From: an uncultured Prochlorococcus sp. | Lineage (GTDB): Bacteria > Cyanobacteriota > Cyanobacteriia > PCC-6307 > Cyanobiaceae | Direction of reading: 5' to 3' | Assembly: GCA_902564695.1 (NCBI GenBank) | Contig: CACFCB010000010.1 | Coordinates: 1-41,690, forward strand | Length of the DNA: 41,690 nucleotides | Part shown: in pieces, positions 1 to 19,090 of the stretch | How the letters are laid out: each line of letters opens with the position of its first letter | Numbering within the stretch: position 1 is the first letter of the stretch | Notes under the pieces: model-generated | Told to the model about the DNA's origin: nothing | Seen by the model: the letters and a program-made list of their open reading frames with translations, nothing else | Database searches by the model: none | Program-made: the position numbers and the translations under genes

Positions 1-486
1 TTTGAGGCAGGCATTTTCAGCTTCTTGTAAGTTTCCTAGCTGAACAAAACAATTAGCAAGGTTGCCCCAAGCAGAAGCTAATTGAGGATCGGATTTAGTG
101 GCTTTAATTAATAAAGATAATGCTTCTTGTTTGTTATCTGTATTGAGTTCAATACTTCCTAGATTCGTTAATGCTGGAGCGTAAGAATTATTAATTGCTA
201 TAGCTTTTTGATAATAGTTTTTAGCCGTATTAATATCACCAACAGCTTGATATGTGTTGCCTAGATCCTGAATAGATTCATAATCATTAGGTTTAAGAGT
301 CAGAGCTTTATGTAAATATAAACGAGCATCATCTATCTTTCTTATTGCTAAAAAAGATTTTGAGATTAATTTTATAGCTTCTATTGAATTTCTATCATTA
401 GCTAATATTTTATTACAAATATCAATTGCTTCTTGATATTTATTATTTTGAAAGAGGAGTTGAGCTATTTCTATATTTGCTTCCAA
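1..486 (-). CDS. TPR-repeat protein, N-terminal part (cut by window edge)
   Basis: The reading frame is open from a TTG at 484-486 to the window edge (162 codons, no stop), so only the N-terminal part is present. It is a string of tetratricopeptide repeats with the usual pattern (for example YAPALTNLGSIEL and LASAWGNLAN). TPRs form helical scaffolds that bind proteins or peptides. The first ~160 residues are a close paralogue of the N-terminus of the TPR/oxygenase gene at 1626-3875, with the same atypical TTG start in the same context, so the C-terminus outside the window may also be an oxygenase-like domain (inference). About 75 bases upstream of the start also match the other copy, which points to tandem gene duplication. 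Confidence 0.8.
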   Translation of the reverse strand, partial: MEANIEIAQLLFQNNKYQEAIDICNKILANDRNSIEAIKLISKSFLAIRKIDDARLYLHKALTLKPNDYESIQDLGNTYQAVGDINTAKNYYQKAIAINNSYAPALTNLGSIELNTDNKQEALSLLIKATKSDPQLASAWGNLANCFVQLGNLQEAENACLK

Positions 487-588
487 GTCTTAAATCCTGA
501 TATGCTGTTAATATATCAGATTTTATTTAAGTTCTCAGTGCTTGCCTTATAAAAATAACTATTTTCTAATGAAAACAAATCAAAAATA

Positions 589-1197
589 TTAGGAAATACT
601 GAAAGCCTTAGAACTTTTAGGGAGCAATTAAAAAATTGTATGATATTGGAAATTCATTCAAGGCAGAATGATCATTGCCTTGCTCTATTAAATGATTTCC
701 TTACTGGTGCAGAAACACCATCTCCTCTGATAAGGATTATGGTTATAAGACTAAAAATGGACGTAGAAAAGTAATTCTTTGGTCAAAAAATAAATGGACT
801 GATATTGATCAATTAGGTTCAAAGAAAATTCCAGCAGGAAGATTTATTTCAGGTATTACTAATGAGATTAAAATTATAGGCATTTCTTTCCTTGGAGATT
901 AGCACATGTAAGTACGGGAAGGAAAGATCATATATCCTTTATTAAAATTTAAATTTTTCAAGAAAAAAAACTATTATTCTTGGTGATTTTAATCAAAATA
1001 TTCCAAAACAAAATCAACCCGAGATAGTATTCTCTTCATTATGTCATTTGATAGATGGATTGAATTTATTAACTGCAAATATGGGTCTTGATAACATAGT
1101 AATTTCAAATGACTTAAAAGCAGAGAGTGTAACAAGAATTAAGACTGGGAATAATAGTGATAATGATTGGATTAGTTATTCAATTAAGTTTTCTTGA
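589..1197 (+). pseudogene. Decayed endonuclease/exonuclease/phosphatase (EEP) family gene
   Basis: No single frame is open, but consecutive pieces in shifting plus-strand frames read as an EEP-fold (DNase I-like) protein. From 589 one frame gives EIHSRQNDHCLALLNDF, resembling the catalytic Glu segment. After a shift near 720 another gives NGRRKVILWSKNKWTDID to about 890. A third gives PWRLAHVSTGRKDH near 890-930, then comes LGDFNQNIP near 980-1010 and a C-terminal piece (LDNIVISNDL, then NSDND) ending at a TGA at 1195-1197. The GDFN motif and the C-terminal D/H-like motif order are typical of EEP nucleases. At least three frame changes make it non-functional as one protein. It runs opposite to the flanking TPR genes. 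Confidence 0.72.
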
Positions 1198-1430
1198 TTT
1201 CTTCGCTTCCTCTACCTCATCACTAAATCTCACTTCGATTTACTCCCTCTTCGTTCTTATTTGGTGTAAGAGAGTTTCAAGAAGTTCTAAACAGATTAAA
1301 ATACATTACTAGTAAAAAGGTTTAGAGAAATAAGGAGTTTCAAGCGTTCACTTAGTGTGCCATAGAGATCGAAAATGTGGAGGGGGATTTTATGAACTGA
1401 TAATGGAGAGATAGATCTCTTGTATATCAA
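1198..1430 (-). pseudogene. Remnant of an unrecognised repeated gene (copy 1)
   Basis: Read on the minus strand this stretch contains a piece translating as IFDLYGTLSERLKLL, and further downstream a piece RFSDEVEEAKKSRK. The first closely resembles HRIHGTLTERLELLN in the remnant at 5596-5990. Frameshifts and stops interrupt it. I do not recognise the protein family. It lies between the EEP pseudogene and a TPR gene and looks like one copy of a decayed family scattered through the first 6.7 kb. Confidence 0.4.
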
Positions 1431-1506
1431 TCGGTTTCACGTTCGTGGAGGGTGATTGAGGTTTCTTGGCTGGATATGTCTGGTCTATTTATTACTGAAG
1501 GCATTA

Positions 1507-1534
1507 AAAAAGCACCTATCAGGTAGATGCTTTT
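1507..1534. terminator. Hairpin, possible terminator between EEP remnant and TPR gene
   Basis: An inverted repeat pairs AAAAGC with GCTTTT and, inside a small asymmetric bulge, ACCT with AGGT around a 3-base loop. It is followed on the plus strand by a T-rich run (TTTTCTTTTA). It lies about 90 bases beyond the 3' end of the minus-strand TPR gene at 1626-3875 and could end transcription in either direction. Confidence 0.45.
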
Positions 1535-1625
1535 CTTTTACTCAAAGAGAAATAGGACTCCTTGTTCTATTTATTTCGTTAGAAATTCTTGTATATTTTC
1601 TTTAAAAGAATTAGATCAGAGTTTC

Positions 1626-3875
1626 TTAGAATCCATAGAAATTTATACCAACCATTACTCTATCTTTATTTCCGCTGTATGAAACTGAATGATATTTTTC
1701 ACCATTAATAATTATAATCATACCATTTTTTGGCAATATTTCCTCTTCAGGATTATATAACTTGAGTATACCTGGTTCTTCTACAGTTTGATCTCCTATT
1801 TCAAGATAGTATACTAAGGAATACTTGTGTTGGCATAGTCCAAAATTCTTATCTTGTGGTCCGATATGATTATGCGATTTAGCTCCAGAACCTGAAGTAA
1901 AGATATTAAAAAATGAATCATTAATAATAATTTCTTTTTTTCTAAGTGCTTTTTTAGATATTTCTTTTAGATCCATTTCTAATTTTTTTATAATTTCAGA
2001 TTTATCTTCAAATAAATTAAAATCTGAGCATAATCCGTTTCCATATCTAACATCTTTTGTAAACTTTAGCTGTTTATTTTTTAGTGTATATAAATAAGAT
2101 AAAAGTTCATTTTCTACTGTTCGGTTTAATATTATTCTATCAAATTTTTTTGAAGCCTCTACATGATCTGACTGCGATTGATTCGTCGATTGTTTCTTAG
2201 CATAATTAATTCCACTTTCTGCGGCAAATAATAAATAATTTTTAACTTCATTTCCAGTTAATGAATACGCTTTATTAATATTTATTTTAGCTTCGTCTAA
2301 TGATCTCTTCTCAAATAGACAACTCGCATAATTGAAGTATAAGAGTCTATTTGGTTTAATTTCAATTGCTTTGCGAGTATATAATTCTGCCTCTTGTAAT
2401 TTGCCAAGATCTTTGAAAATGTTTCCCAGATTGGAATAAGACTCTGCGAAGTCAGGCTTGAGTTCAATTGCTTTGCGTAGTGATAATTCTGCTTCTTGTA
2501 ATTTGCCAAGATCTCTCAATATGGCTCCCAGATTTGAATGAGCATTAGCGAAATTAGGTTTGAGTTCAATCGCTTTGCGTGTATATAATTCTGCTTCTTG
2601 CAATTTGCCAAGATCTTTGAAAATGTTTCCTAGATTGGAATAAGACTCTGCGAAGTCAGGTTTGAGTTCAATTGCTTTGCGTAGTGATAATTCTGCTTCT
2701 TGTAATTTGCCAAGATCTTTGAATATGTTTCCTAGATTGGAATGAGCCTCTGCGAAATCAGGTTTGATTTCAATCGCTTTGCGATAGGACAATTCTGCTT
2801 CTTGAATCTTACCAAGATCTTTCAATATGATTCCCAGATTGTTATGAGCCTCTGCGAAATCAGGTTTGATTTCAATCGCTTTGCGAGTAGATATTTCAGC
2901 TTCTTGTAATTGTCCTAGGTCTTTTAAAACTACCCCAAGGCTTAGATGAGCCTGAAAGAAATCAGGATTGAGTTCAATAGTTTTGCGTAGAGGTTGTTCA
3001 GCATCTTGAAGTTTCTTTTTCCCAAGTAGGATTGTTCCAAGAAGGAAGTGAGGGTTGAAGAGATTGGGGTTTATTTCAATTGCTTTGCGTATAGATATTT
3101 CAGCTTCTTGTAATTTTCCTAAGTCTTTTAAAACTGCCCCAAGGTTTAAATGAGCTTGAAAGAAATCAGGCTTGAGTTCAATGGTTTTGCGTAGAGGTTG
3201 TTCTGCTTCTTGAAGTTTCTTTTGCCCAAGTAGGATTGATCCAAGAAGGAAGTGAGAATTAAAGAGATTTGGATTAAGTTCTATTGATTTGCGTATGGAT
3301 AATTCTGCTTCTTGAAGTTTTTTTTGTCTAAGGAGAATTGATCCGAGAAGGAAATGAGAGTTAAAGAGATTTGAATTGAGTTCTATTGCTTTGCGGCAAG
3401 CAATTTCAGCTTCTTGTGTCTTTCCTTGTTGAACATAGCCATTCGCAAGGTTCCCCCAAGCAGGAGCTAATTGTGGGTCAGATTCAGTCGCTTTGAGGAG
3501 CAATGCTAATGCGTCTTGTTTATTACCATTAATTAGTTCAATGGTTCCAAGATTGGTTAAAGCGGGAGCGTAAGAACTATTAATAGCTATTGCTTGTTGA
3601 TAATAATTTTTAGCAGTATTCGAATCCCCAACAGCTTGATAAGTATTGCCTAGATCTTTAATAATTTCATAATCATCAGGTTCAAGAGTCAGTGCTTTAT
3701 TAAAATACAAACGAGCATCTTCTATCTTTCTTGTTGCTAAACAAGATTGTGCGATTAATTTCATAGCTTCTATTGAATTGCTATCAGTAGCTAATATTTG
3801 ATTACAAGTATTAATTGTTTCTTTATATTTATTTTGTTTAAAGAGCGTTTGAGCTATTTCTATATTCGGTTCCAA
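1626..3875 (-). CDS. Large TPR protein with C-terminal 2OG-Fe(II) oxygenase-like domain
   Basis: A 749-residue protein starting at TTG (3873-3875). Residues ~1-530 are about fifteen TPR units of 34 residues; those from ~residue 180 on follow a near-identical consensus (LGKLQEAELSLRKAIELKPD). Residues ~590-749 resemble the 2-oxoglutarate/iron oxygenase-like family found at the end of TPR proteins (Pfam 2OG-FeII_Oxy_5 type): H668-N-H670, then KYSLVYYLEIGD, H729 in EKYHSV and R739 in DRVMVGINF. These fit iron and 2-oxoglutarate ligands, although the canonical HxD is not seen as such, so catalysis is uncertain. The TPR part presumably binds a protein substrate (inference). Parts of the repeat are nearly identical at DNA level with a 204-base period, indicating recent internal expansion. 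No signal peptide is seen. Confidence 0.85.
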   Translation of the reverse strand: MEPNIEIAQTLFKQNKYKETINTCNQILATDSNSIEAMKLIAQSCLATRKIEDARLYFNKALTLEPDDYEIIKDLGNTYQAVGDSNTAKNYYQQAIAINSSYAPALTNLGTIELINGNKQDALALLLKATESDPQLAPAWGNLANGYVQQGKTQEAEIACRKAIELNSNLFNSHFLLGSILLRQKKLQEAELSIRKSIELNPNLFNSHFLLGSILLGQKKLQEAEQPLRKTIELKPDFFQAHLNLGAVLKDLGKLQEAEISIRKAIEINPNLFNPHFLLGTILLGKKKLQDAEQPLRKTIELNPDFFQAHLSLGVVLKDLGQLQEAEISTRKAIEIKPDFAEAHNNLGIILKDLGKIQEAELSYRKAIEIKPDFAEAHSNLGNIFKDLGKLQEAELSLRKAIELKPDFAESYSNLGNIFKDLGKLQEAELYTRKAIELKPNFANAHSNLGAILRDLGKLQEAELSLRKAIELKPDFAESYSNLGNIFKDLGKLQEAELYTRKAIEIKPNRLLYFNYASCLFEKRSLDEAKININKAYSLTGNEVKNYLLFAAESGINYAKKQSTNQSQSDHVEASKKFDRIILNRTVENELLSYLYTLKNKQLKFTKDVRYGNGLCSDFNLFEDKSEIIKKLEMDLKEISKKALRKKEIIINDSFFNIFTSGSGAKSHNHIGPQDKNFGLCQHKYSLVYYLEIGDQTVEEPGILKLYNPEEEILPKNGMIIIINGEKYHSVSYSGNKDRVMVGINFYGF
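2380..2800 (-). repeat. Internal tandem repeat, 204-base period (two TPRs per unit)
   Basis: Within the 749-residue TPR gene the stretch around 2385-2500 recurs almost unchanged at about 2589-2704. Each unit encodes two TPRs, one with ELYTRKAIELKP and one with ELSLRKAIELKP. Third-codon positions are also conserved, so the identity reflects recent duplication or gene conversion rather than protein selection alone. Confidence 0.75.
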
Positions 3876-3904
3876 GTCTTAAACCCGAATGTAGGATTAA
3901 TATA

Positions 3905-4165
3905 TCAGGTTTTATTTAAGTTCTCAGTGCTTGTTTGATAAAAAGAACTATTTTCCCAATCAACTAATTGATTGAAGTCATCTAATTTGGTTATGTCTTT
4001 CAACCCATAGTAAAGGTTTGTTCAATCTCTTTTATTGGAAATTTCTGAAGTTTGAGTGAGTTTGGGTGCTTCCCAATCTACTTTGCTTCTAAGATACACA
4101 TTCCCAATAGAAGCCTTTTAGAGGTAAATCATCATTTCTGCATGAAAAATTTATGTAAATGCCTT
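3905..4165 (-). pseudogene. Remnant of an unrecognised repeated gene (copy 2)
   Basis: On the minus strand the stretch reads, with one in-frame TGA and an upstream frame change, as VYLRSKVDWEAPKLTQTSE followed by DITKLDDFNQLVDWENSSF, ending at a TGA at 3905-3907. The last segment nearly matches the end of the remnant at 5596-5990 (ITKLDDFNQLVDWKNSSFF). It sits about 30 bases upstream of the TTG start of the large TPR gene on the same strand. The family is unrecognised. The region 3876-4315 otherwise holds no gene I can support. Confidence 0.5.
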
Positions 4166-4315
4166 GTGCAGTAATTTCATTTTTCTTGGCTTTAGCCTAA
4201 TTATTTAGTAAGGCTATTAAGTAATATTTGTAATGGGAATATACTTTTTCTTTTAATAATATTATGTTATTAATCTAGCTGAGAAAGTAGTATTTAATAG
4301 TATAACTTGTTGAAT

Positions 4316-5491
4316 TTATAATACGTAAAAATTAACTACTATAACCACTCTATCTTTCTTCCCATCATAATGAACAGAATGAAATCTAGATGCTGGAAAA
4401 ATAACTATCATTCCCTCTTCGGGTATAAAGATTTTATTTGGATTATGAAATTTCAATATACCCTGATCTTTACCACTTTTGTCACCTATAGATAAATAAT
4501 AAACCAAGCTAAATTTCTGCTTTGCGATATCAATCTGAGCTATCTTATCTACTCGCCCAAGATGGTTGTGAATTTCACTTCCCCCTCCGATCCCATCTCT
4601 TGGCTTAATTATATTAAAAAAGGAATCAGTAATATATATTTCTGAACCAAAATATTCGCTTAGTTTTTGTAATAAATCTTTCTGAAAATATCTTAATATT
4701 GGGATATCGTTCTTGAACAAGAAATAATCTGATCCTTTAATATTTCCATAAATTGGACGTGATTTTTCTTCAGCTTTTAGTGTATATAATTTTTGAATCA
4801 GCTCTTCTTCTACAGATCTATGTAAAACAATTGGGCTCCATTCTGACTGATCATCTGATAGCAAATTTATTATATTTTCTAACCTCTTATTTTTAGGTTT
4901 GTTTTTCCTTTTCTCTTTTAGAATAGCCAGCAAAGTATTATTTTGCATATCATTGGGATCTAATTTATACGCTAATTCGAGTGTTTCTAATGAAGAATTT
5001 ATATCTCCTAGAGCAAACTGGTTAATTCCTAAACTTAATTTACATTTTGCAGATTTAGGGTCAAGCTTAATTGCTTTGTGAGTCGATACTTCTGCTTCTT
5101 CTAATTTACCAAGATCTCTCAATATGATTCCAAGATTGTAATGAGCATCGGCGTAATCAGGCTTGAGTTCAATTGCTTTGCGAGTCGATACTTCTGCTTC
5201 TTTTAAGTTGCCATGTTTTTGTAAAATGACTCCATAATTAGAAAAAACTCTGTGATCATTATATCCTTGATTTATGATCTGTTGATAGTATTTTTTTGCT
5301 TCTGGAATATTTCCTTTTAGATGAAACTGAATTGCTTGTTTAATTAATTGTTCTTTAGAAGTCTTAGTGGTGGCATTATTAGTACTAATAATAATATTTT
5401 CTTTAATTTCTCCTAAAGCAAATGGAACTGGGAATGTTTTGACATCGGTCACTTTCTTTTTTGCTTGCTTATTATCACGAGATTCCAACAT
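4316..5491 (-). CDS. TPR protein with C-terminal 2OG-Fe(II) oxygenase-like domain
   Basis: A 391-residue protein with an ATG start at 5489-5491. The leader (residues ~15-50, including FPVPFALGEIKENI) is followed by about four TPRs (residues ~52-190) and a C-terminal oxygenase-like domain (~residues 215-391) with H308-N-H310, FSLVYYLSIGD, H371 in SRFHSV and R381 in KKDRVVIVVNF. The C-terminus is a clear paralogue of the one in the 749-residue protein but carries far fewer TPRs. The leader and first TPR (NQGYNDHRVFSNYG) instead match the 511-residue protein at 6779-8314, which has a different oxygenase domain, so this gene looks like a recombinant of both types. It is probably cytoplasmic. Substrate unknown; peptide or protein hydroxylation is inference. 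Confidence 0.85.
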   Translation of the reverse strand: MLESRDNKQAKKKVTDVKTFPVPFALGEIKENIIISTNNATTKTSKEQLIKQAIQFHLKGNIPEAKKYYQQIINQGYNDHRVFSNYGVILQKHGNLKEAEVSTRKAIELKPDYADAHYNLGIILRDLGKLEEAEVSTHKAIKLDPKSAKCKLSLGINQFALGDINSSLETLELAYKLDPNDMQNNTLLAILKEKRKNKPKNKRLENIINLLSDDQSEWSPIVLHRSVEEELIQKLYTLKAEEKSRPIYGNIKGSDYFLFKNDIPILRYFQKDLLQKLSEYFGSEIYITDSFFNIIKPRDGIGGGSEIHNHLGRVDKIAQIDIAKQKFSLVYYLSIGDKSGKDQGILKFHNPNKIFIPEEGMIVIFPASRFHSVHYDGKKDRVVIVVNFYVL

Positions 5492-5595
5492 CTTCTAAGA
5501 TCTTCTATCTAAGTAATTCTACTATTAACACTATATTACCAATTAAAATGCTTACTGAGATTCTTTTTATTTAATTCATAGAGATAAATGAATGT

Positions 5596-5990
5596 TTACT
5601 TGCCTGCTTCGAAAAAAAGAACTGTTTTTCCAGTCAACTAATTGATTGAAGTCATCCAATTTGGTTATTTCTTTCATCTTATAGTCAAATCTTTTTCCCT
5701 TTAATCGGAATTACTCCCTCTCCGTTTTTTGTTGGTTCAGGTAAGTCTATATAAGTCCAAGAAACAGGAATAACGCTGTTGCAGTAAGGGGTTAGAAGAT
5801 TAAGTAGTTCAAGACGTTCGGTAAGTGTGCCATGGATTCTATGACCTGTGTAGGGAAAAATGTAGGGGAAATGGAAATCGCTGAAGGGATGCGAGATCTT
5901 AGGTATGTCGGTCTGTTTCGGGTGCTGTGTAGGGGACAGTTTTTTTGAGGATATGGGGTTCTCTATTCTCCTCCCTCTCCATATTCATTA
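5596..5990 (-). pseudogene. Remnant of an unrecognised repeated gene (copy 3, longest)
   Basis: Minus-strand pieces read HRIHGTLTERLELLN, then LTPYCNSVIPVSWTYIDLP, EPTKNGEGVIPIKG, and after a one-base frame change at an A-rich stretch FDYKMKEITKLDDF, NQLVDWKNSSFFEAGK and a TAA at 5596-5598. Upstream (5850-5990) further pieces such as ILKKTVPYTAPETDRHT occur but with stops. The sequence is protein-like enough to show a once-real gene. I do not recognise the family. It ends about 105 bases upstream of the start of the 391-residue TPR gene on the same strand, mirroring the arrangement at 3905-4165. Confidence 0.55.
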
Positions 5991-6020
5991 AGTTCACCCC
6001 AAATCAATAAAGTTCTAATA

Positions 6021-6492
6021 TTAATTAGCAAAACTGATCCAACCAGTAATTATATATTTTGATCCTTCTTGTAAAATATTACCTCTGTGTGCGGGTGAGT
6101 CCATTCAGCCGGCCATATTAACGTTAGACCTTTTCTTGGTTTTATTTCAAGATCATAATGACTGAACGATGTTGAACCACCTTCTTCAACATCGTTCAAG
6201 TAAATCATGAAAGCAAAAATACGGTGAAGACTATCTAAAGACATTTGTTCCGTATGCATCTTTTTAAAATGTTGAACAGGTTTATATCTTTGTAAATTAA
6301 AAGAACTAATTACTAATTTCTTAGATAATTCCTTTAAGAAACTCCATTCTTCTATGTAGTTTTTGTAACATTCCAAAAGTTGATCAAAATATGCTTTAAA
6401 TGCTTCAGTTCCTGGAAGAAGAATTTCTTTAGGATGTATAGTAATATCGATACTATCTTTTTTTTATTGTTTAATCTGTCAAAGAGATTCAT
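6021..6492 (-). pseudogene. Prolyl-4-hydroxylase-type 2OG-Fe(II) oxygenase, twice frameshifted
   Basis: The central open frame (6050-6376) encodes a typical small P4Hc-type oxygenase core: MHTEQMSLDSLHRIFAFM, YLNDVEEGGSTSF, IKPRKGLTLIWPAEWTHPH. HxE (MHTE) and the TH-H segment fit iron ligation. The expected continuation is in another frame: RGN, then LQEGSKYIITGWISFAN and a TAA at 6021-6023, so one frame change falls at about 6083-6090, exactly at the H-RG motif. The N-terminus is also displaced: an ATG at 6490-6492 starts MNLFDRLNNKKK, and a run of eight A (minus strand, about 6466-6473) breaks the frame into DSIDITIHPKEILLPGTEAF. Corrected, the protein would be ~157 residues. Either a pseudogene or a gene with sequencing errors or slippage; two independent breaks favour decay. 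Confidence 0.75.
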
Positions 6493-6778
6493 AGCTTTTG
6501 GTGAATATTTTTGTCCGTTTTAGGTGTTTTTGAGGGGCATATTTTTTTCTTCTTTACTCTTACCTTACTTTCCGTGACCTTTTTTTCTAGTATCTTTCAA
6601 GGGTTTCCTCTTCACTTTTGTTGAGTTAGGGTAAGTTTGTATCGGTAAACTTTTCTTAATAATTATTTTGAAGCATCTAAAATAATAAGGTTCATAAAGA
6701 TATAGTAAATTAATAGAATTATTACTTTTTCGAGGATTAATGTTAATTGAAAATATAGATTGATTTAAATAAAATTAT
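6493..6778. other. Gene-poor AT-rich spacer with a possible fourth remnant
   Basis: No intact gene is seen. On the minus strand near 6590-6655 the pieces TNLP and NKSEEETLERY fall where copy 3 has IDLPEPTKNGEGVIPIKG, and the DNA around TTAGGGTAAGT is similar to that near 5730, so this may be a further, heavily decayed copy of the unrecognised gene. The similarity is short and could be chance. Confidence 0.25.
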
Positions 6779-8314
6779 CTAATTTACACTTCTCTTCCCA
6801 AATAACATTGTGATATTAATTCTGCGATTTTCATATCCTTCTTTGAATTCATAACTATCAGTTTCGTGAAATAAATTAGAATTGAATACAACAGCACGAT
6901 TTTCTTTATAAGGAATAACTTTTGTATTTCCTTTACTTTTTTTTAGCTCTTCTCTCATTTTCTGTACATCACGATTGTAAATATTAAAATCCCAATCCTT
7001 AGGTGCTTCTACGTCATATACGATTACCCCACCAGAATCTGGATTTAAGTTTGCTTTATTAGGAGTAATCCAAAAATTGACATTTATCGCTGCGAAGTCT
7101 GCATGAATATTTATACCTCTTAGCGACGAATTTTTGTTTTTTGCTCGGCTATCATATTTGTATGCCCATATTTGACTTATAGGGAAATCTTTGAAGATTT
7201 TTGGGAATTTATTTCTTAGTTCTTCTGCGATTTGAATAATTAAAGGATTAGCTAAGCCCTCTTTTAAATATGCTCCAAGATATCCAGATTTTTTCACATC
7301 AAACCAAATTGTACTTTGAAGTAGAAACTTTTGAAGAGATTTTAGTGCTGAATTACTTAGGAAATTGTCAATATAAGTTAATCCAAATTCATGATTAAAA
7401 TAATCATTTGTGATTTCATCAATATTTAAGGAACTATTTAATGAATCACTTTTTAGTCTAGGTGCTTTTGTAATATGTATTAGACGATTATAACTATCTT
7501 TAAGAAGCCTTTTGGAGCTATCACTTAGAGCAATTAATTTAGTTTCAGAGGGCCAATCAATTTCACTAGCAACTTTCATGTAAAGATTGGTAAGTTTCAT
7601 AAATTTCTCTCTTTCTTCACTATGATTTGCAAGATATTCAAATTGTTCAATATCATGTTTTATCTTAGCCTTACTAATATTCGTAAATCGTTTTAGATTA
7701 TTTTCTTGATTGCCTAATCCTCTTAGCAGATTAGAACTTTTTGAGAAATATTTTAAGGATAAATCATGTTCACCTTTCTGAAGAAGTATGAATCCCAGAT
7801 TGGAATGAGCATTTGCTAATTCAGGCTTCAGTGCAATCGCCTTACGCTGTGATATTTCTGCGTCTTCTAAGTTACCAAGATTGTTCAAAATATTTCCTAG
7901 ATTTGAATATGCCTCTGCTAGATCAGGCTTAAGTGCAATTGCTTTTCGTAGTATTATTTCTGCTTCTTTTAATTTCCCAAGATTTTTTAATATCAGTCCA
8001 TAATTTGAAAAGACTCTATGATCATTATAACCTTGATTTATAAAGTCTTGATAATACCTGGCTGCTTCTTTAATATTTCCTTCTGAATGAAACTTAAATG
8101 CTTTATGAATTATTTGTTCTTTTGAAGGTTTTATTTCTGTATCGGTGGTAATATATATATTAGTTCTTATTTCTTCTGCAGCAAATTGAACTGGGAAAAT
8201 CTTGGCTGTTTGATCTTTTGAATATAATTGATTTTTTTTATGAGATTCTTCCATTTTTTCTTTTTTATCCTGTATCTGAGAGATTTTACTTCTAAAATCA
8301 ACGATATTAATCAT
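6779..8314 (-). CDS. TPR protein with a second type of 2OG-Fe(II) oxygenase domain
   Basis: A 511-residue protein. A leader (residues 35-65, with FPVQFAAEEIRTNI) resembles that of the 391-residue protein, and is followed by about four TPRs (residues ~66-200), a linker of mixed helices (~200-300) and a C-terminal domain (~300-511). The C-terminal domain shows INIHADFAAINVNFWITP (H404, D406), DSGGVIVYDVEAPKDWDF, then FNSNLFHETD (H483) and RRINITMLFGKR (R497/R498). This HxD...H...R order is the double-stranded beta-helix signature of 2OG-Fe(II) dioxygenases, and all expected ligands are present, unlike the HNH type of its neighbours. Probably a soluble hydroxylase using TPRs to bind its substrate (inference). 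It is the outermost intact member of the cluster. Confidence 0.82.
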   Translation of the reverse strand: MINIVDFRSKISQIQDKKEKMEESHKKNQLYSKDQTAKIFPVQFAAEEIRTNIYITTDTEIKPSKEQIIHKAFKFHSEGNIKEAARYYQDFINQGYNDHRVFSNYGLILKNLGKLKEAEIILRKAIALKPDLAEAYSNLGNILNNLGNLEDAEISQRKAIALKPELANAHSNLGFILLQKGEHDLSLKYFSKSSNLLRGLGNQENNLKRFTNISKAKIKHDIEQFEYLANHSEEREKFMKLTNLYMKVASEIDWPSETKLIALSDSSKRLLKDSYNRLIHITKAPRLKSDSLNSSLNIDEITNDYFNHEFGLTYIDNFLSNSALKSLQKFLLQSTIWFDVKKSGYLGAYLKEGLANPLIIQIAEELRNKFPKIFKDFPISQIWAYKYDSRAKNKNSSLRGINIHADFAAINVNFWITPNKANLNPDSGGVIVYDVEAPKDWDFNIYNRDVQKMREELKKSKGNTKVIPYKENRAVVFNSNLFHETDSYEFKEGYENRRINITMLFGKRSVN

Positions 8315-9374: not shown

Positions 9375-9938
9375 GTGCTTAAAGAAAGAATCCAGGAAGT
9401 TCTCGAGTTTTCTAAAAGTGAGTCTCCCTATAAAAAAGCTAATAAAGGTTGGATTAATCAAGATATATTTTTAGATCTCAGTCCTTCTGCTGAAAGTGCT
9501 AAACAAAAAAATGAAGTAGCAAAAATTTCATTATTATGGGCGCCAATAAATAATTTATTGTCTAATATATTCCTTGTATTAATTATAGGTTCGATATTAG
9601 TCTTTACTTCTTACTCTTTATCTAAAGGTAGAATAAATCTGAATTTATTTAATACTTCTTTCGTTAATCCAATAGTCAATGTTGAAGAAAATAGATTGAT
9701 AAATGAAAATCATTCAGAGGATATAGATAAAGAATCCTCTGAAAATGAAAAAACTCCTGTTACGGATAAAAAAATTAAATCTAGTAAAATTGATTTATCT
9801 GACAATTTAAAAATTGAATTAAAAAAGAATACTTTAAGTACTGAAATCCATCAAAAAGAGATTAAAGAAAATGTTCTTAAAAGTACCAATGATATCAAAT
9901 CATTGAAGAAAAATAAATCAAAATCAAACTTTTTATGA
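9375..9938 (+). CDS. Hypothetical single-pass membrane protein
   Basis: A 187-residue frame from a GTG at 9375, 89 bases downstream of the lysine/alanine-rich gene and on the same strand. Residues 1-55 are hydrophilic, ~58-80 form a membrane segment (NNLLSNIFLVLIIGSILVF), and ~85-187 are a highly charged, lysine- and glutamate-rich tail likely to be disordered. No known domain is recognised. AT-rich codon use matches the neighbours. Single-pass anchoring with a charged tail is shared with the preceding gene, so they may act together (inference). Confidence 0.5.
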   Translation: MLKERIQEVLEFSKSESPYKKANKGWINQDIFLDLSPSAESAKQKNEVAKISLLWAPINNLLSNIFLVLIIGSILVFTSYSLSKGRINLNLFNTSFVNPIVNVEENRLINENHSEDIDKESSENEKTPVTDKKIKSSKIDLSDNLKIELKKNTLSTEIHQKEIKENVLKSTNDIKSLKKNKSKSNFL

Positions 9939-10064: not shown

Positions 10065-10199
10065 GTGGCCGAAGCAAAGGGTAATCAACTCGCGACAATA
10101 TCTGTTTACTTGAATACACCAATCATTGCAGTGCTTTTGGGCGTTGGATTTGTTTTGGGTTCAATTCTATTTGCAGGAATTTTACTTATTGCTAGATAG
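10065..10199 (+). CDS. 44-residue single-pass membrane peptide, relative of the 101-residue protein
   Basis: GTG start at 10065-10067 preceded at about 8 bases by TAGGAG, a good ribosome-binding site, and a TAG stop at 10197-10199. The product begins MAEAKGNQLATISVYLNTP and continues with one hydrophobic helix (IIAVLLGVGFVLGSILFAGI) to the end. The pattern LATISVYLNTPIIAV parallels LLTVSVSLNTGKIVAI in the 101-residue protein, so the two share a C-terminal membrane module, here without the repeat tail. Its last 8 bases overlap the 3' end of the convergent beta-lactamase-like gene. Small hydrophobic proteins of this size are common in picocyanobacterial thylakoid complexes, but the role is unknown. 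Confidence 0.65.
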   Translation: MAEAKGNQLATISVYLNTPIIAVLLGVGFVLGSILFAGILLIAR

Positions 10200-11085
10200 C
10201 TAATTTATTTAATTCGCTGCTTAAAGCAGGAAGTAAATATTGATTTTTGACTAAGTTATCTCCAGTTGTAAAAACAACGACAAGCATAGGTTTTTTGTTT
10301 GGAGCTTCCCACCATGCGACATCATGGCGAACTTCACTCATTAAACCTGCTTTGCTCCATATCTTTGAAGCTAAAGGGATACCCTCCCCTAAAAAACCAT
10401 CGACTTGATTTTCAGGATTTTGCTTTCTGATAAAAAGATCGAGAGAACGATTGAAAACTTCTTTTAAATTATCACTTTCAACTATTGATAACATTTGGTT
10501 AGTCATTAAAGACTCAAAAAACCTCGCAGTCCCATCAGTGGTCATTCTGTTTCTATTCTCATTGTTTGGACCATAGAAATCTTTTTCTCTTCCAAAAGGT
10601 CCTTCATTCCATGTCTTTTGACTACAATTCCAATTCTTAATTTCAGGCCATTGAAGTTTTCCTAACCAATTATTAATTAAGTTTCTTTGAATTTCCCATG
10701 CTTTATATCTTTCCTCATTAAGCGATGGTCCGCTTGTTGTTCCTGTTAAAAGATCTAAAATATAACTTGTTGCATCATTATTTGAATTTGCAATCATTTC
10801 ATACAATGCTCTTTTAAGTTCTTCTGAATCAATTATTAATCCTTCTTTTATCCATATCTGAGTTGCTAATGCATATACGATTTTTACCACACTTGCAGGG
10901 TAATAGGTTCTGTTGGAGTTCCATCCGGTTCCATAACCATTAAATGGGGATGGAGTTTTATTTTTATAACGTATCCATGTTATGGCTATATTATTTTGAA
11001 GGTTTGGATGACCATCTTTTTCAAATCTATCGAGGAGACCTTTGAGGCAGAATGCCATTTCAGGGTCTTGTCGGTAGAACGCCAT
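10192..11085 (-). CDS. Class A beta-lactamase-like serine hydrolase
   Basis: About 297 residues from the ATG at 11083-11085; a TTG at 11092-11094 would add three. Penicillin-recognising hydrolase motifs are present (numbering from the TTG): S68-V-V-K71 in YYPASVVKIVYAL (nucleophile and general base), S104-N-N in MIANSNNDATSYIL (SxN motif), and K248-A-G in IWSKAGLMSEVRHDVAW (KTG-like). The order and spacing fit the beta-lactamase2 family (PF13354). No signal peptide is seen, so it is probably not a secreted drug-resistance enzyme; such cyanobacterial proteins are of unknown substrate and may act on peptidoglycan fragments or other amides or esters. It is divergent from an NlpC/P60 gene only 21 bases away, which supports a cell-wall link (inference). 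Confidence 0.8.
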   Translation of the reverse strand: MAFYRQDPEMAFCLKGLLDRFEKDGHPNLQNNIAITWIRYKNKTPSPFNGYGTGWNSNRTYYPASVVKIVYALATQIWIKEGLIIDSEELKRALYEMIANSNNDATSYILDLLTGTTSGPSLNEERYKAWEIQRNLINNWLGKLQWPEIKNWNCSQKTWNEGPFGREKDFYGPNNENRNRMTTDGTARFFESLMTNQMLSIVESDNLKEVFNRSLDLFIRKQNPENQVDGFLGEGIPLASKIWSKAGLMSEVRHDVAWWEAPNKKPMLVVVFTTGDNLVKNQYLLPALSSELNKLAI

Positions 11086-11106
11086 AGCGCTCAAGAATAA
11101 TTCATT

Positions 11107-11850
11107 ATGACATTAGAGGTTTTGCTAACTAATTCTTCATTTGTTTTAGGAAGTTTGTGGAAACTTCGAATTAATATAGATTGTTTTAAAAATGAGTTTA
11201 GTGAAGAACTAGTTACTCAAGCTAGTATTGGCAGGTGTTTTCAATTGCTTGATTATTTCAAAATTGATTTTAAAAATAATCAAATGATCGATAGGGTTAA
11301 AGTACGTCTCTTGGAAGATGACTATATTTGTTGGTTGAAATTTTCTGAATTAACTCATAATGCTTTTAAAATAGAATTTTGGAAAGCTGAATTGCTTTCT
11401 AAAGAGCAAATTTTTGATAGGATCCCTTCTATTTTGGACTGGGTTAAAGCTGTAGCAGAAATTAGTAATGAGTATTTGTGGGGAGGCACAATTGGTCCCA
11501 ATTTTGACTGTTCTGGTTTGGTGCAATCTGCTTTCGCTAGTTCAGGTGTTTGGATACCAAGGGATGCATATCAACAGGAAAACTTTTGTAAAAATGTTTC
11601 AATGGATATTTCTTCTTTAGATGAAAAATTGATGCCTGGAGATTTAATTTTTTTTGGAACGGTTGAAAAGTGTACTCATGTTGGATTGCATATTGACAAT
11701 GGTTTTTATATTCATAGTTCTGGGGTCAGTAATGGGCATAATGGAATAGAGATTGATTGTTTATTTCCCCCGAACCTTGGAAATATCGCTTCTTTTTACA
11801 GATCTCACTTTAGATCTGCTGGACGAGTGATCTCTTCCTATCAGAGTTGA
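11107..11850 (+). CDS. NlpC/P60 family cysteine peptidase
   Basis: A 247-residue protein starting at ATG 11107. Residues ~1-95 form an N-terminal region likely to be an SH3-like binding domain as in related cyanobacterial proteins. Residues ~108-240 are the NlpC/P60 catalytic domain: C135 in NFDCSGLVQSAF, H191 in CTHVGLHID and H203 in FYIHSSG make the Cys-His-His triad, and LMPGDLIFF is the conserved family motif. Such enzymes cleave D-gamma-glutamyl-diaminopimelate bonds in peptidoglycan. No signal peptide is evident; non-classical export or recycling of wall peptides inside the cell are both possible. The gene diverges from the serine hydrolase and is followed 46 bases later by a glycosyltransferase. 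Confidence 0.87.
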   Translation: MTLEVLLTNSSFVLGSLWKLRINIDCFKNEFSEELVTQASIGRCFQLLDYFKIDFKNNQMIDRVKVRLLEDDYICWLKFSELTHNAFKIEFWKAELLSKEQIFDRIPSILDWVKAVAEISNEYLWGGTIGPNFDCSGLVQSAFASSGVWIPRDAYQQENFCKNVSMDISSLDEKLMPGDLIFFGTVEKCTHVGLHIDNGFYIHSSGVSNGHNGIEIDCLFPPNLGNIASFYRSHFRSAGRVISSYQS

Positions 11851-11895: not shown

Positions 11896-12858
11896 ATGAG
11901 TTCTAATATCGCATTATCAATAGTTGTTCCTATTTTTAATGAAGAAGAAAGTATTCCTTTATTAGTTAATCAGTTATTAGAAGTTTTAGGTCCTATGGAG
12001 GAAACATTTGAATTAGTTTTAATTAATGATGGTTCGTCAGATAAAAGTGCAGAGGTGATGAGAAAACTAAGCTTATATGTACCAGAATTAGTAGGTGTTC
12101 TTCTACGTAAAAACTATGGTCAAACTGCAGCGATGGCAGCTGGTTTTGATATCTCCTCTGGTGATATTGTTATCACACTTGATGGTGACTTGCAAAATGA
12201 TCCTGCAGATATTCCGGTTTTAGTTAATAAGATTAGGGATGGGTTTGATCTCGTTAGTGGCTGGAGATTTCGAAGAAAAGATGCTGCTATTAGTAGAAAA
12301 CTTCCTTCTAAAATTGCTAACCGATTAATTGGTAAAGTGACTGGGGTTCGACTTAATGATTATGGATGTTCTTTAAAGGCTTATAGAAAAGAAGTATTAA
12401 CTGATATGAGATTATACGGAGAATTACATAGGTTTCTACCAGTTTTAGCAAATATTGAAGGGGCTAGGATTACAGAAGTTAAAGTTAATCATAGAGCACG
12501 CCAATTTGGATCTAGTAAATATGGAATAGATAGAACTTTTAGAGTTCTAATGGACTTATTGACTGTTTGGTTTATGAATAGATTTTTAACTAGACCAATG
12601 TATGTTTTTGGTTTCGGTGGAATCCTTGCAATTATTGGAAGTTTTATAACAAGCTTTTATTTATTAATTATTAAAGTTTTAGGTGAGGATATTGGTAATA
12701 GACCCTTGCTCATCTTCGCTTTACTTCTTGCTGTTACTGGCGTTCAACTTTTTGGCTTTGGATTGCTTGGAGAGCTTCAGATCAGAACTTATCATGAAAG
12801 TCAAAATCGACCAATTTATCGCATTCGGGATACATTTCGAGGAGGGCGAGAGACTTGA
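11896..12858 (+). CDS. Family 2 glycosyltransferase, membrane-anchored (GtrB/DPM1 type)
   Basis: A 320-residue protein with ATG start at 11896 and GAGGAA upstream. Residues ~5-230 are a GT-A fold of family 2: IVVPIFNEEESIPLLV at the N-terminus, LINDGSSDKSAEV and ITLDGDLQNDP (metal-binding DxD region). Two membrane helices follow at ~235-300 (FGFGGILAIIGSFIT and IFALLLAVTGVQLFGFGLL). This is the layout of polyprenyl-phosphate sugar transferases such as GtrB and cyanobacterial dolichol-phosphate mannosyltransferase-like enzymes, which load a sugar onto a lipid carrier for envelope glycan assembly. Sugar specificity cannot be read. Its last 43 bases overlap the convergent gene at 12816-13295. 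Confidence 0.87.
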   Translation: MSSNIALSIVVPIFNEEESIPLLVNQLLEVLGPMEETFELVLINDGSSDKSAEVMRKLSLYVPELVGVLLRKNYGQTAAMAAGFDISSGDIVITLDGDLQNDPADIPVLVNKIRDGFDLVSGWRFRRKDAAISRKLPSKIANRLIGKVTGVRLNDYGCSLKAYRKEVLTDMRLYGELHRFLPVLANIEGARITEVKVNHRARQFGSSKYGIDRTFRVLMDLLTVWFMNRFLTRPMYVFGFGGILAIIGSFITSFYLLIIKVLGEDIGNRPLLIFALLLAVTGVQLFGFGLLGELQIRTYHESQNRPIYRIRDTFRGGRET

Positions 12859-16783: not shown

Positions 16784-19090
16784 TCAGCCGAGACCGATTA
16801 AGCGAGCGTGGAAGAAGGCCCAAGTTGTAGCAATTCCTCCTAGAAGGAAATGAGCTGCTCCTACTGCACGACCTTGAGTGATAGATAGAGCTCTTGGTTG
16901 AATAGTAGGTGCCAAGTTAAGTTTATTGTGAGCCCAAATGATTGACTCAAATAATTCTTGCCAGTAACCACGGCCACTGAATAGGAACATAAGACTAAAT
17001 GCCCAAACAAAATGTGCTCCTAAGAACATCAAACCATACATACTTATGGGTTGACCATAACTTGTAAGGACCTGCGATGACTGAGCCCAGAGGAAATCTC
17101 TAAGCCAACCATTAATAGTTATGGAGCTTTGAGCAAAGTTGCCTCCGGTAAGTCCCCATACATCACTTTGCATTTTCCATGAGAAGTGGAAGATAACTAC
17201 TGATAATCCGTTATACATCCAGAACAATCCAAGGAAAACGTGATCCCAAGATGAAACTTGGCATGTACCTCCTCTTCCTGGTCCATCACATGGGAATCTA
17301 AATCCAAGATTCGCTTTATCAGGAATTAGTCTGGAGCTCCTTGCGAATAAAACTCCCTTGAGAAGAATAAGAAGGGTTACGTGGATAGTAAAAGCATGGA
17401 TATGGTGAATCATGAAATCAGCTGTTCCTAGAGGAATAGGAGCGATTCCAATTTTTCCGCCAACTTGGCTTACAGAACCATTGAAAACTTCACTTACTAA
17501 ACCAGGTTGAAGATTTACATTGAAACCATTAAGTGTGGTTTCTCCTGCTGCGGAATGATGGATATTTTGAATCCATTGAGCAAAAACAGGTTGAAGTTGG
17601 ATTCCTGTGTCACTGAACATATCTGCAGGTCTTCCTAAGGCTCGCATTACATCGTTGTGGATATAAAGACCAAAACTATGGAAACCTAAGAACATGCAAG
17701 CCCAATTAAGATGACTAATTAATGCATCTCTTGCTTTCAAAATTCTATCTAGAACATTATCTATATGCATTGCAGGGTCATAGTCTCTAATCATTGCAAT
17801 GCCAGCATGTGCTGCAGCACCAACAATAAACAAACCTCCAATCCACATGTGGTGGGTAAATAAACCTAATACTGTTGGGTAATCAACAGATAAGTATGGA
17901 TAAGGAGGCATCGCATACATGTGATGAGAAATGATAATGCTCAAAGAACCAACCATTGCAAGGTTGATTGCTAATTGTGCATGCCAACTATCCGAAAGGA
18001 ATTCGTAAATTCCTTTATGTCCATTTGGAGCAGGGAAAAGTATTGGGTCTCCTGCGTGGTTATCAACTATTTCTTTAAGGCTATGACCAATACCAAACAT
18101 AGTTCTATATATATGTCCTCCAAATACAGCTAGCACCCCAAAAGCCAAATGATGGTGAGATATGTCTGTCATCCATAGACTTCCAGTTACAGGATTTAAT
18201 CCTCCTTTAAAGGTAAGGAAATCTGTAAATGCCCACCAATTTCCACTGAAGAAGTTTTCAACAGTTCTTCCTGCAAGACCAGGGAAGATCTGACTAGCTA
18301 TTTGTGGATTGCAAAATTCATGAGGAAGAGGCATGTCTGCAATGCTTGCAATTGATACTCCATCAATTACAAGTGGTTTACCTGCATCTATTGCATCCAT
18401 TAATGCTGCAGTAGGAGCACCAATATGAATACAGTGACCTGCCCATGCAATAGAACCTAAACCTATAAGTCCAGCTTGATGATGGTTGAGCATCGATTCA
18501 AGATTTCTGAACCAGTCAAGTTTAGGAGCTGCTTTGTGATAGTGATAAATACCACCATGTAGCATTATTGCTGCCATGAGAAGAGCACCAATAGCAAGAG
18601 CCATTAACTCAGTCTCATTTGTAATTCCCCAGCCTCTCCACATCTGGAAAATTCCTGATGTGATCTGAATGCCGTGATAGTTTGCACCTAAATCAGCGTT
18701 AAGCATTTCTTGGCCAACTATTGGCCAAACAACTTGGGCGCCGGGTTTTACATTGGTAGGATCAGCTAACCAGCCAGAATAATTCGAAAAGCGCGCCCCG
18801 TGAAAGAAGGCAGCGCTCATCCAAATAAAGATGACTGCTAAATGTCCAAAGTGAGCAGAAAAGATTTTTCTACTGGTTTCTTGTAGATCTCCAACATGGG
18901 TATCAAAATCATGCGCATCAGCATGAAGATTCCATATCCAAGTTGTCGTCTTTGGACCCTTCGCAAGGGTCTTGGACCAAAAACCAGGCTTATCAAGCTT
19001 GGAAAAATCTACAGGGATTGCATCAGTTTCGATAGGTTTATCGAGAACTGGTTCTTTTTTTTGTTCTCTTTCTGGTGGGCTAATGGTCAT
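16784..19090 (-). CDS. psaA: Photosystem I P700 apoprotein A1 (PsaA)
   Basis: A 768-residue protein, close to the usual PsaA length, starting at ATG 19088-19090 with AAGGA upstream. It pairs with PsaB to hold P700, A0, A1 and F_X in the thylakoid membrane. [18 protein letters not shown] gives its two F_X cysteine ligands, and numerous His residues in helices ([26 protein letters not shown]) bind chlorophyll. It is first in the psaA-psaB operon and is preceded by a 638-base non-coding region with potential leader structures. Confidence 0.98.

Follow-up and report, generated by a model that had tools for sequence, protein, structure and literature searches.

A tRNA-Ser-bounded island of TPR-scaffolded, apparently shuffled modifying enzymes in Prochlorococcus

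Why should a Prochlorococcus genome carry, side by side on one strand, several tetratricopeptide repeat (TPR) genes that end in different oxygenase-like domains? The question arises from contig CACFCB010000010.1 of an uncultured Prochlorococcus sp. (assembly GCA_902564695.1), whose whole length of 41,690 nucleotides was analysed and is referred to here as the window. The answer that we favour, with a probability of roughly 0.55, is that the window covers a portion of a single island, whose genes belong to a modular and recombining family of cytoplasmic modifying enzymes in which the TPRs would bind the acceptor.

Positions 1-8314 hold four TPR genes and the remnant of a prolyl-4-hydroxylase (P4H)-type gene, all on the minus strand (Table 1), as judged from the list of open reading frames (ORFs) and from profile searches, which confirms the TPR cluster described in a first-pass annotation of the same DNA. 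The TPRs in the 749-, 391- and 511-aa proteins are unambiguous, with Pfam TPR_1 E-values of 8.7e-104, 5.2e-20 and 2e-14, respectively, and the 749-aa gene contains tandem DNA repeats of 102 and 204 bp. The genome assembly amounts to 1.44 Mb in 76 contigs, is 72% complete and presumably belongs to the low-light LLI clade; the window is its contig C10 and contains psaA at 16784-19090. As the window starts at a contig edge and no tRNA gene was found within its 41,690 nt, the distal end of the cluster lies outside the view.

Relatives of the 391-aa protein are abundant in a search of its own genome, and many of them share an N-terminus of about 73 residues, here called NT1, in which the peptide K-x-F-x-V-P-F-x-L-x-E-I-K-x-N-I and a helical cap precede the TPRs. 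Among 41 Prochlorococcus genomes there are 1 to 46 NT1 matches per genome; those in four of them (G009, G026, G030 and G031) are weak (E-values between 6e-10 and 2e-7) and could simply reflect ordinary TPRs. In an order-wide sample NT1 matches were found in 85 of 299 genomes, the counts per genome being lower bounds because 19 candidates at most were scored in each. Outside the genus, the matching genomes all come from the same family and hold at least 1 to 6 matches, mostly weaker, while one genome of another genus (G274) has a strong NT1 with at least six matches (best 3.4e-38) and one of the oxygenase modules of the window, the HAD type described below. A second leader, NT2, starts the 749-aa gene and the truncated gene at 1-486. 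At a strict cut-off it was found in seven ORFs of one set, followed by an HNH-type module (also described below), a HAD-type module or no recognised module, and outside that set it precedes MT (L049), Oxy_5 (L057) and the HAD genes of L130 and L142.

The range of enzymes behind the leader was assessed in three complete genomes (G004, G005 and G006), in the genome of the window and, for G002 and G007, at the corresponding locus, where 147 NT1 ORFs were counted after removal of 8 edge-cut duplicates. In 130 of them the C-terminus is at least 60 aa long, and these C-termini form 16 clusters; the remaining 17 have no such module. The largest clusters are GT9-like (36), GT41 (22), sulfotransferase (18) and methyltransferase (10), followed by Oxy_5 and HAD (8 each), HNH and TylF-type (6 each), a weakly SGNH-like group (4), an unknown group (3), and FkbM, radical SAM/SPASM and an alpha/beta-hydrolase-like type (2 each), the last being our own reading of a cluster with no Pfam match. 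Three clusters are singletons, one of them papain-like in our reading and two possibly leftover scaffold. A recognisable enzyme family can be assigned to ten module types. The GT41 module matches O-GlcNAc transferase (OGT) chains in the PDB at 6e-79, and the best Pfam match of the GT9-like module is to heptosyltransferases (PF01075, 0.00046), at 20 bits against a cut-off of 22. The first-pass annotation had proposed related hydroxylases on changeable scaffolds: the scaffold is indeed interchangeable, as set out below, while the proposal was too narrow in its chemistry, as oxygenases (Oxy_5, HAD and HNH) account for 22 of the 130 modules and the scaffold also bears GT41, GT9-like, sulfotransferase, methyltransferase and radical-SAM enzymes. 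NT1 genes make up 4.42% of the DNA of G004, 3.31% of G005 and 3.95% of G006. Ten contigs of the window's assembly (C4, C6, C10, C15, C22, C25, C29, C31, C33 and C50) end inside TPR-family genes; short-read assembly thus probably fails at these repeats, and draft genomes would show too few members of the family.

The interchangeability of the scaffold is apparent at two levels. Of the 147 proteins, 105 could be compared after exclusion of 27 that lack a full NT1 and a further 15 that lack a usable module; NT1 identity among these is 0.601 both in the 809 pairs that share a module and in the 4651 pairs that do not (permutation 0.473), and the nearest NT1 neighbour shares the module in 16% of cases against 15% expected. 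The leader therefore does not predict the enzyme. At the DNA level, the 111 proteins of the complete genomes G004-G006 (6105 pairs) were compared with a cut-off of 92% identity. Eleven pairs share NT1 at this level, all 11 within one genome and all 11 with different modules. Conversely, 18 pairs share a module, 16 of them within one genome, and none of the 18 shares NT1 at 92%; their NT1 identities range from no match up to 91%, and TPR number differs in all 18, in line with the earlier claim that it varies among paralogues. These counts do not support an origin of most paralogues by recent duplication of whole genes, since leader and module are never shared together in these 18 pairs.

Where the exchange takes place can be followed in individual pairs. 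Seven chosen chimeric pairs are 80-98% identical along the leader and TPRs, and the identity breaks off close to the final TPR of the member with fewer repeats, at a point inside the array of the longer one; in one example a sulfotransferase gene and a gene with an unknown module are 98.4% identical from -46 to +1016. In the reciprocal screen of 22 same-module pairs, 17 have module DNA identities of at least 0.905, with leader-region identities of 0.636-0.813 for 16 of these and 0.899 for one. As read from these sequences, recombination within genomes has joined leader/TPR segments to new enzyme segments, and because identity ends near the junction in one member and inside the TPR array in the other, the repeat DNA of about 102 bp would be the natural place for crossover.

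The second part of the answer concerns the site itself. The serine-hydrolase anchor beside the cluster was found in 36 of the 41 genus genomes, and both edges of the island, the core-side anchors and a tRNA-Ser(GCT) at the distal end, were recovered in ten, other retrieved sites running out at contig edges. Between the anchors there are no NT1 or NT2 genes in L051, L056 and L058, one in L042 and L049, three in L041 and L043, four in L046 and L047, and ten in L044 and L045 together, so that the gene sets at the tRNA-Ser site differ among genomes. This range of 0-10 family genes in ten genomes agrees with the first-pass annotation, which had expected an island of variable gene number and had named two outcomes that would speak against its proposal, namely C-terminal folds other than beta-helices and identical gene content or TPR number across strains; neither occurred. 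Additional, degenerate copies of the tRNA 3' end, with no more than 4 mismatches in 20, were recognised in 6 of the 16 loci that represent this site, one of them the window, and in none of 7 loci elsewhere, the longer 3'-end search pattern having been drawn up with the window copy at 5706-5741 already in view; a 13-base core with at most one mismatch occurs twice in the window against 0.02 expected. Some of the retrieved stretches carry tRNA-Ala, -Arg, -Asn or -Phe.

In being bounded by a tRNA and having repeats of the tRNA 3' end between cassettes, the locus resembles additive flexible genomic islands such as the tRNA-Lys island described in Methylophilaceae (PMC10872708). It differs from these and from tycheposons in a cargo dominated by one shuffling enzyme family, and in that no PF00589 recombinase was found in or beside the island in seven genomes, the window genome being judged on the sequenced part of its island; given this lack of a match, it is classed as a tRNA-bounded additive island rather than a tycheposon. 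An integron-like cassette array was also considered and the intergenic repeats of the window were checked by BLAST; as the repeats that were followed are either upstream regions common to genes of the family or 3' ends of tRNA-Ser together with the adjoining flank, the tRNA-bounded additive island fits better. LLI-specific islands are mentioned in PMC7522525, in the text of which the term TPR has no match.

Among the enzymes borne by the window's own scaffolds, the C-terminal domain of the 511-aa protein, the HAD (HxD) type, is the clearest. It has no significant Pfam match, and its AlphaFold model, built on a 54-sequence alignment, has a pLDDT of 95.7 and a pTM of 0.92. At E<=0.001 the model finds 493 matches in the PDB; the highest-ranked, at query TM-scores near 0.4-0.5, are led by a Pseudomonas prolyl-4-hydroxylase and include PHD2, HalD and EctD. 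Model and matches alike describe a double-stranded beta-helix (DSBH). Residues H190-x-D192, H269 and R283/R284 are listed as invariant in the 54-row alignment (the window and 53 of 68 loci, with 13 left untried and L177 and L189 dropped for stop or frame breaks), giving the HxD...H iron triad and an arginine for 2-oxoglutarate (2OG). The predicted fold of a 2OG-Fe(II) enzyme is therefore well supported, as the first-pass annotation had suspected from its HAD...H...R pattern. A TPR-type domain beside a DSBH hydroxylase is familiar from collagen P4H, leprecan and AspH, and the HAD module resembles such TPR-bearing 2OG-Fe(II) oxygenases in matching the P4H and PHD2 folds.

Of 300 genomes of the family, 16 contain a match to the HAD domain, which is weak in one case. 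Among the 68 HAD loci from named genomes, 18 are from Prochlorococcus and are nearest to the window, with one metagenome-assembled genome as the exception (L133); the others belong to marine and other Alpha- and Gammaproteobacteria, Methylophilaceae, Nitrospirae and others. TPR-like sequence precedes the domain in most of the non-Prochlorococcus loci checked, while NT1 was found in 15 Prochlorococcus loci and L133 and in 0 of the 49 others. L133 (PBXW01000132.1) is a 6.4-kb contig labelled Crocinitomicaceae that contains NT1-TPR genes and a HAD module, and is either mis-binned Prochlorococcus DNA or a gene transfer. A Methylophilaceae contig (L141) holds a HAD-type gene at 2-1105 and a truncated HNH-type gene at 4671-5102, about 3.6 kb apart, which hints that such modules travel among pelagic bacteria.

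The HNH-type domain of the 749- and 391-aa proteins is less certain. Its HxH...H...R pattern is common to both, and all 22 aligned rows keep H114, H116, D121, H177 and R187, so that HxH stands in place of the HxD/E of the usual iron triad throughout. The pattern and matches to the phage family phrog_81 '2OG-Fe(II) oxygenase' (5.1e-08 and 7.4e-14) favour the oxygenase-like ends that had been proposed for these proteins, while PF13640 remains under its curated cut-off of 27 (20.8 and 25.0 bits) and the modelled fold is of moderate confidence; the model of the 391-aa protein matches viral 2OG enzymes, including cyanophage ones, at TMt of about 0.5-0.7 amid many TPR matches. A 2OG-oxygenase fold is thus only moderately supported. 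The group differs from the TPR-bearing 2OG-Fe(II) oxygenases in its invariant HxH and in giving no useful match among PDB sequences, and it occurs in 19 of the 41 genus genomes, once weakly.

The origin of these oxygenase domains was also considered. Profile comparison of HNH with Oxy_5 gives a weak alignment at the HNH motif, and common ancestry of the HNH and HAD oxygenases was unsupported by profile comparison. Recent phage origin was set aside, as phage records match weakly or partially: HNH has four matches, all in phage S-CAM8 (30%, E 4e-3), and HAD has one (32%, E 1e-17). A viral-contig scan with a single HNH protein domain, which reaches close relatives only, found none. Remote kinship of the HNH-type domain with phrog_81 remains, as far as the profiles indicate. 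The labels phrog_1644 'minor coat protein' and phrog_274 'DNA endonuclease V' were disbelieved for these domains; both families match 2OG oxygenase domains, and the names look wrong or mixed.

What had been described as a stand-alone prolyl-4-hydroxylase-type gene turned out to be damaged. Compared by tblastn with intact homologues of 198-199 aa from other genomes, the ORF at 6050-6376 lacks the first 54 or so residues, and its last 23 or so lie in another frame near 6090 relative to two of three homologues; with its start missing and its frame changed, the piece is a remnant or an assembly error. In three places (L044:10315-10908, L044:18622-19218 and L047:8414-9010) a separate P4H-type oxygenase gene of 198-199 aa follows within 10 bases of a scaffold that has no recognised C-terminal enzyme.

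How such proteins might work is suggested by their repeats. Position 6 of the TPR is asparagine (N6) in 800 of 850 units, alike over all module classes, as in the superhelix of OGT. In SPINDLY the TPRs recruit protein substrates through an asparagine ladder, which in both SPINDLY and OGT is said to tether the acceptor peptide (PMC10027727). The family shares with these GT41 enzymes an N-terminal N6-repeat superhelix followed by a C-terminal enzyme, the GT41 module being a direct homologue, and SPINDLY also has a disordered regulatory peptide ahead of TPR1 (PMC10027727); it differs in that one scaffold and leader bear many enzymes, exchanged by recombination. In FlmG of Caulobacter the TPR half binds flagellins and the C-terminal GT-B half, needed alongside, fails to restore modification alone (PMC7591256). 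The substrate of FlmG is known, and neither a leader family nor shuffling enters the account of FlmG given there.

By analogy, each gene would encode a cytoplasmic protein with a leader (NT1 or NT2), an OGT-type TPR superhelix and, in most cases, one of many different enzymes at the C-terminus. As in OGT and FlmG, the superhelix would hold an acceptor polypeptide in extended form, which the C-terminal enzyme would hydroxylate, glycosylate, sulfate or methylate. Shuffling would then re-pair acceptor specificity with chemistry, probably so that products at the surface or released from the cell become more diverse in the face of phages or grazers. For the leader, a shared function in docking or in regulation, possibly autoregulation, is conceivable. 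Taken further, we tentatively propose a combinatorial protein-modification system in which recombination in the repeats would have connected one leader and an asparagine-ladder TPR scaffold to at least ten kinds of enzyme. No description of this NT1/TPR family was found among the titles and abstracts listed in a search of mostly non-subscription literature.

Several observations weigh against this picture of a shuffled, acceptor-binding modification family. The 14 NT1 ORFs of the window genome include no recent chimera, the best leader match being 89.5% and to another genome, so that shuffling is seen in relatives and not in the window. The array is dispensable, since NT1 matches are few in G003 (three) and only weak in the four genomes named above. 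The leader peptide is under only moderate constraint (pN 0.278 against pS 0.453) and is predicted to be disordered, with residues 1-41 of the 391-aa model below 50, while the oxygenase part of that model lies mostly at 57-81. All 11 seed units of the model used to count N6 carry N6 themselves, and N6 is also present in 110 of 122 TPR units of other bacteria. The unknown, alpha/beta-hydrolase-like, papain-like and SGNH-like modules have no or weak family support, and the sugar-nucleotide genes near other family islands (G004 and G006) suit glycan decoration just as well as protein modification.

This last point leads to the strongest rival, which we regard as possible if rather doubtful: the same shuffled family would act on surface glycans or small molecules, its TPRs docking the enzymes together or onto assembly machinery and its modules adding sulfate, methyl, hydroxyl or sugar groups to the O-antigen or capsule. 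The neighbour scan covered 59 of 135 listed island ORFs, all non-TPR and all from G004 and G006, and among the first 25 of 63 families the commonest is GDP-mannose dehydratase/epimerase (8 members), followed by DegT aminotransferase (3), DAHP-synthetase type (3), and cytidylyltransferase, carbamoyltransferase and C-methyltransferase (2 each); these sugar-nucleotide families point to glycans, as does the heptosyltransferase match, just under cut-off, of the largest module cluster. The second largest cluster, in contrast, is a true GT41/OGT domain, a protein-modifying class, and the TPR units are OGT-like across every module class. From the GT41 match and the nucleotide-sugar neighbours, the suggestion of the first-pass annotation that surface proteins or glycans may be the substrate is plausible.

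It is improbable, in our judgement, that the array is a non-adaptive repeat family, expanding and undergoing gene conversion by way of its DNA repeats and carrying most of its enzymes along as passengers on the way to loss. The spread in copy number from 1 to 46 matches would suit such drift, as would the 17 module-less proteins and the existence of remnants, among them the P4H piece and a stop-ridden HAD copy in G015; however, neither oxygenase alignment (54 and 22 rows) shows any change at the catalytic residues, pN is lower than pS in both leader and cap, only 1 of 130 NT1 matches in the three complete genomes has internal stops, and the family takes up 3.3-4.4% of a small genome. A polymorphic-toxin-like system with effectors directed at competitors would have the same formal pattern of constant N-terminus and exchanged C-terminus, and is very improbable given that the identified modules are biosynthetic or modifying enzymes rather than nuclease or pore domains, that the N-terminus is a short polar peptide ahead of TPRs, and that no secretion domain was found among the best 25 Pfam families per protein for five window proteins.

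Table 1. Features of the TPR cluster and its core-side flank in the window.
Feature	Coordinates	Strand	Remarks
TPR gene with NT2 leader, truncated by contig start	1..486	-	Enzyme end beyond window
NT2 leader, long TPR array and HxH-type 2OG oxygenase-like domain, 749 aa	1626..3875	-	Catalytic ~1629-2147
NT1 leader, TPRs and HxH-type 2OG oxygenase-like domain, 391 aa	4316..5491	-	NT1 5222-5446, catalytic 4319-4909
Remnant of P4H-type oxygenase gene	6020..6460	-	tblastn of intact homologues; PF13640 2e-08
NT1 leader, TPRs and predicted HxD...H...R 2OG oxygenase, 511 aa	6779..8314	-	NT1 7991-8206, catalytic 6782-7672
Degenerate tRNA-Ser(GCT) 3'-end copy, 4 mismatches/20, between cassettes	1235..1254	+	
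Degenerate tRNA-Ser(GCT) 3'-end copy, 4 mismatches/20, with downstream flank	5706..5741	+	Flank resembles post-tRNA flank in L042, L049
Core-side edge of island: short lysine-rich 6-aa-repeat protein, C-terminal hydrophobic segment	8980..9285	+	
Conserved island-edge gene, 187 aa, without NCBIfam match	9375..9938	+	
Conserved anchor, serine hydrolase weakly like class A beta-lactamases	10192..11094	-	2.5e-04, under family cut-off
Conserved anchor, NlpC/P60-like protein	11107..11850	+	
Conserved anchor, GT2	11896..12858	+	Our own reading of the sequence

The lysine-rich gene at the island edge encodes hexapeptides of the (AEKKAL)n type ahead of its hydrophobic segment and recurs at L042:3659-4537, L043:3373-4431 and L051:15894-16565. 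Its frame, built on an 18-bp DNA repeat, is 101 aa long in the window and reaches 353 aa in L043, and the gene is present in L051, whose island is empty.

TPR Pfams have been reported as most represented in low-light Prochlorococcus strains and tied to photosystem II (PMC11357015). The family described here recalls that surplus; the account of TPRs in that paper describes no module family, and 'sulfotransferase' has no match in its main text. The modular family may offer an alternative to photosystem assembly as an explanation for the TPR surplus. Prochlorococcus genomes are streamlined, and some have 3-4% of their DNA in a family whose enzymes are re-paired with leaders and scaffolds, which would imply a strong selective reason, possibly diversification of the surface or its products. 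The natural swaps of scaffold and enzyme within the family are open to testing. If the combinatorial reading is true, each strain would generate new pairings of a target protein with a chemistry, a bacterial counterpart of antigenic variation that acts on the modifying enzymes and not on the surface protein.

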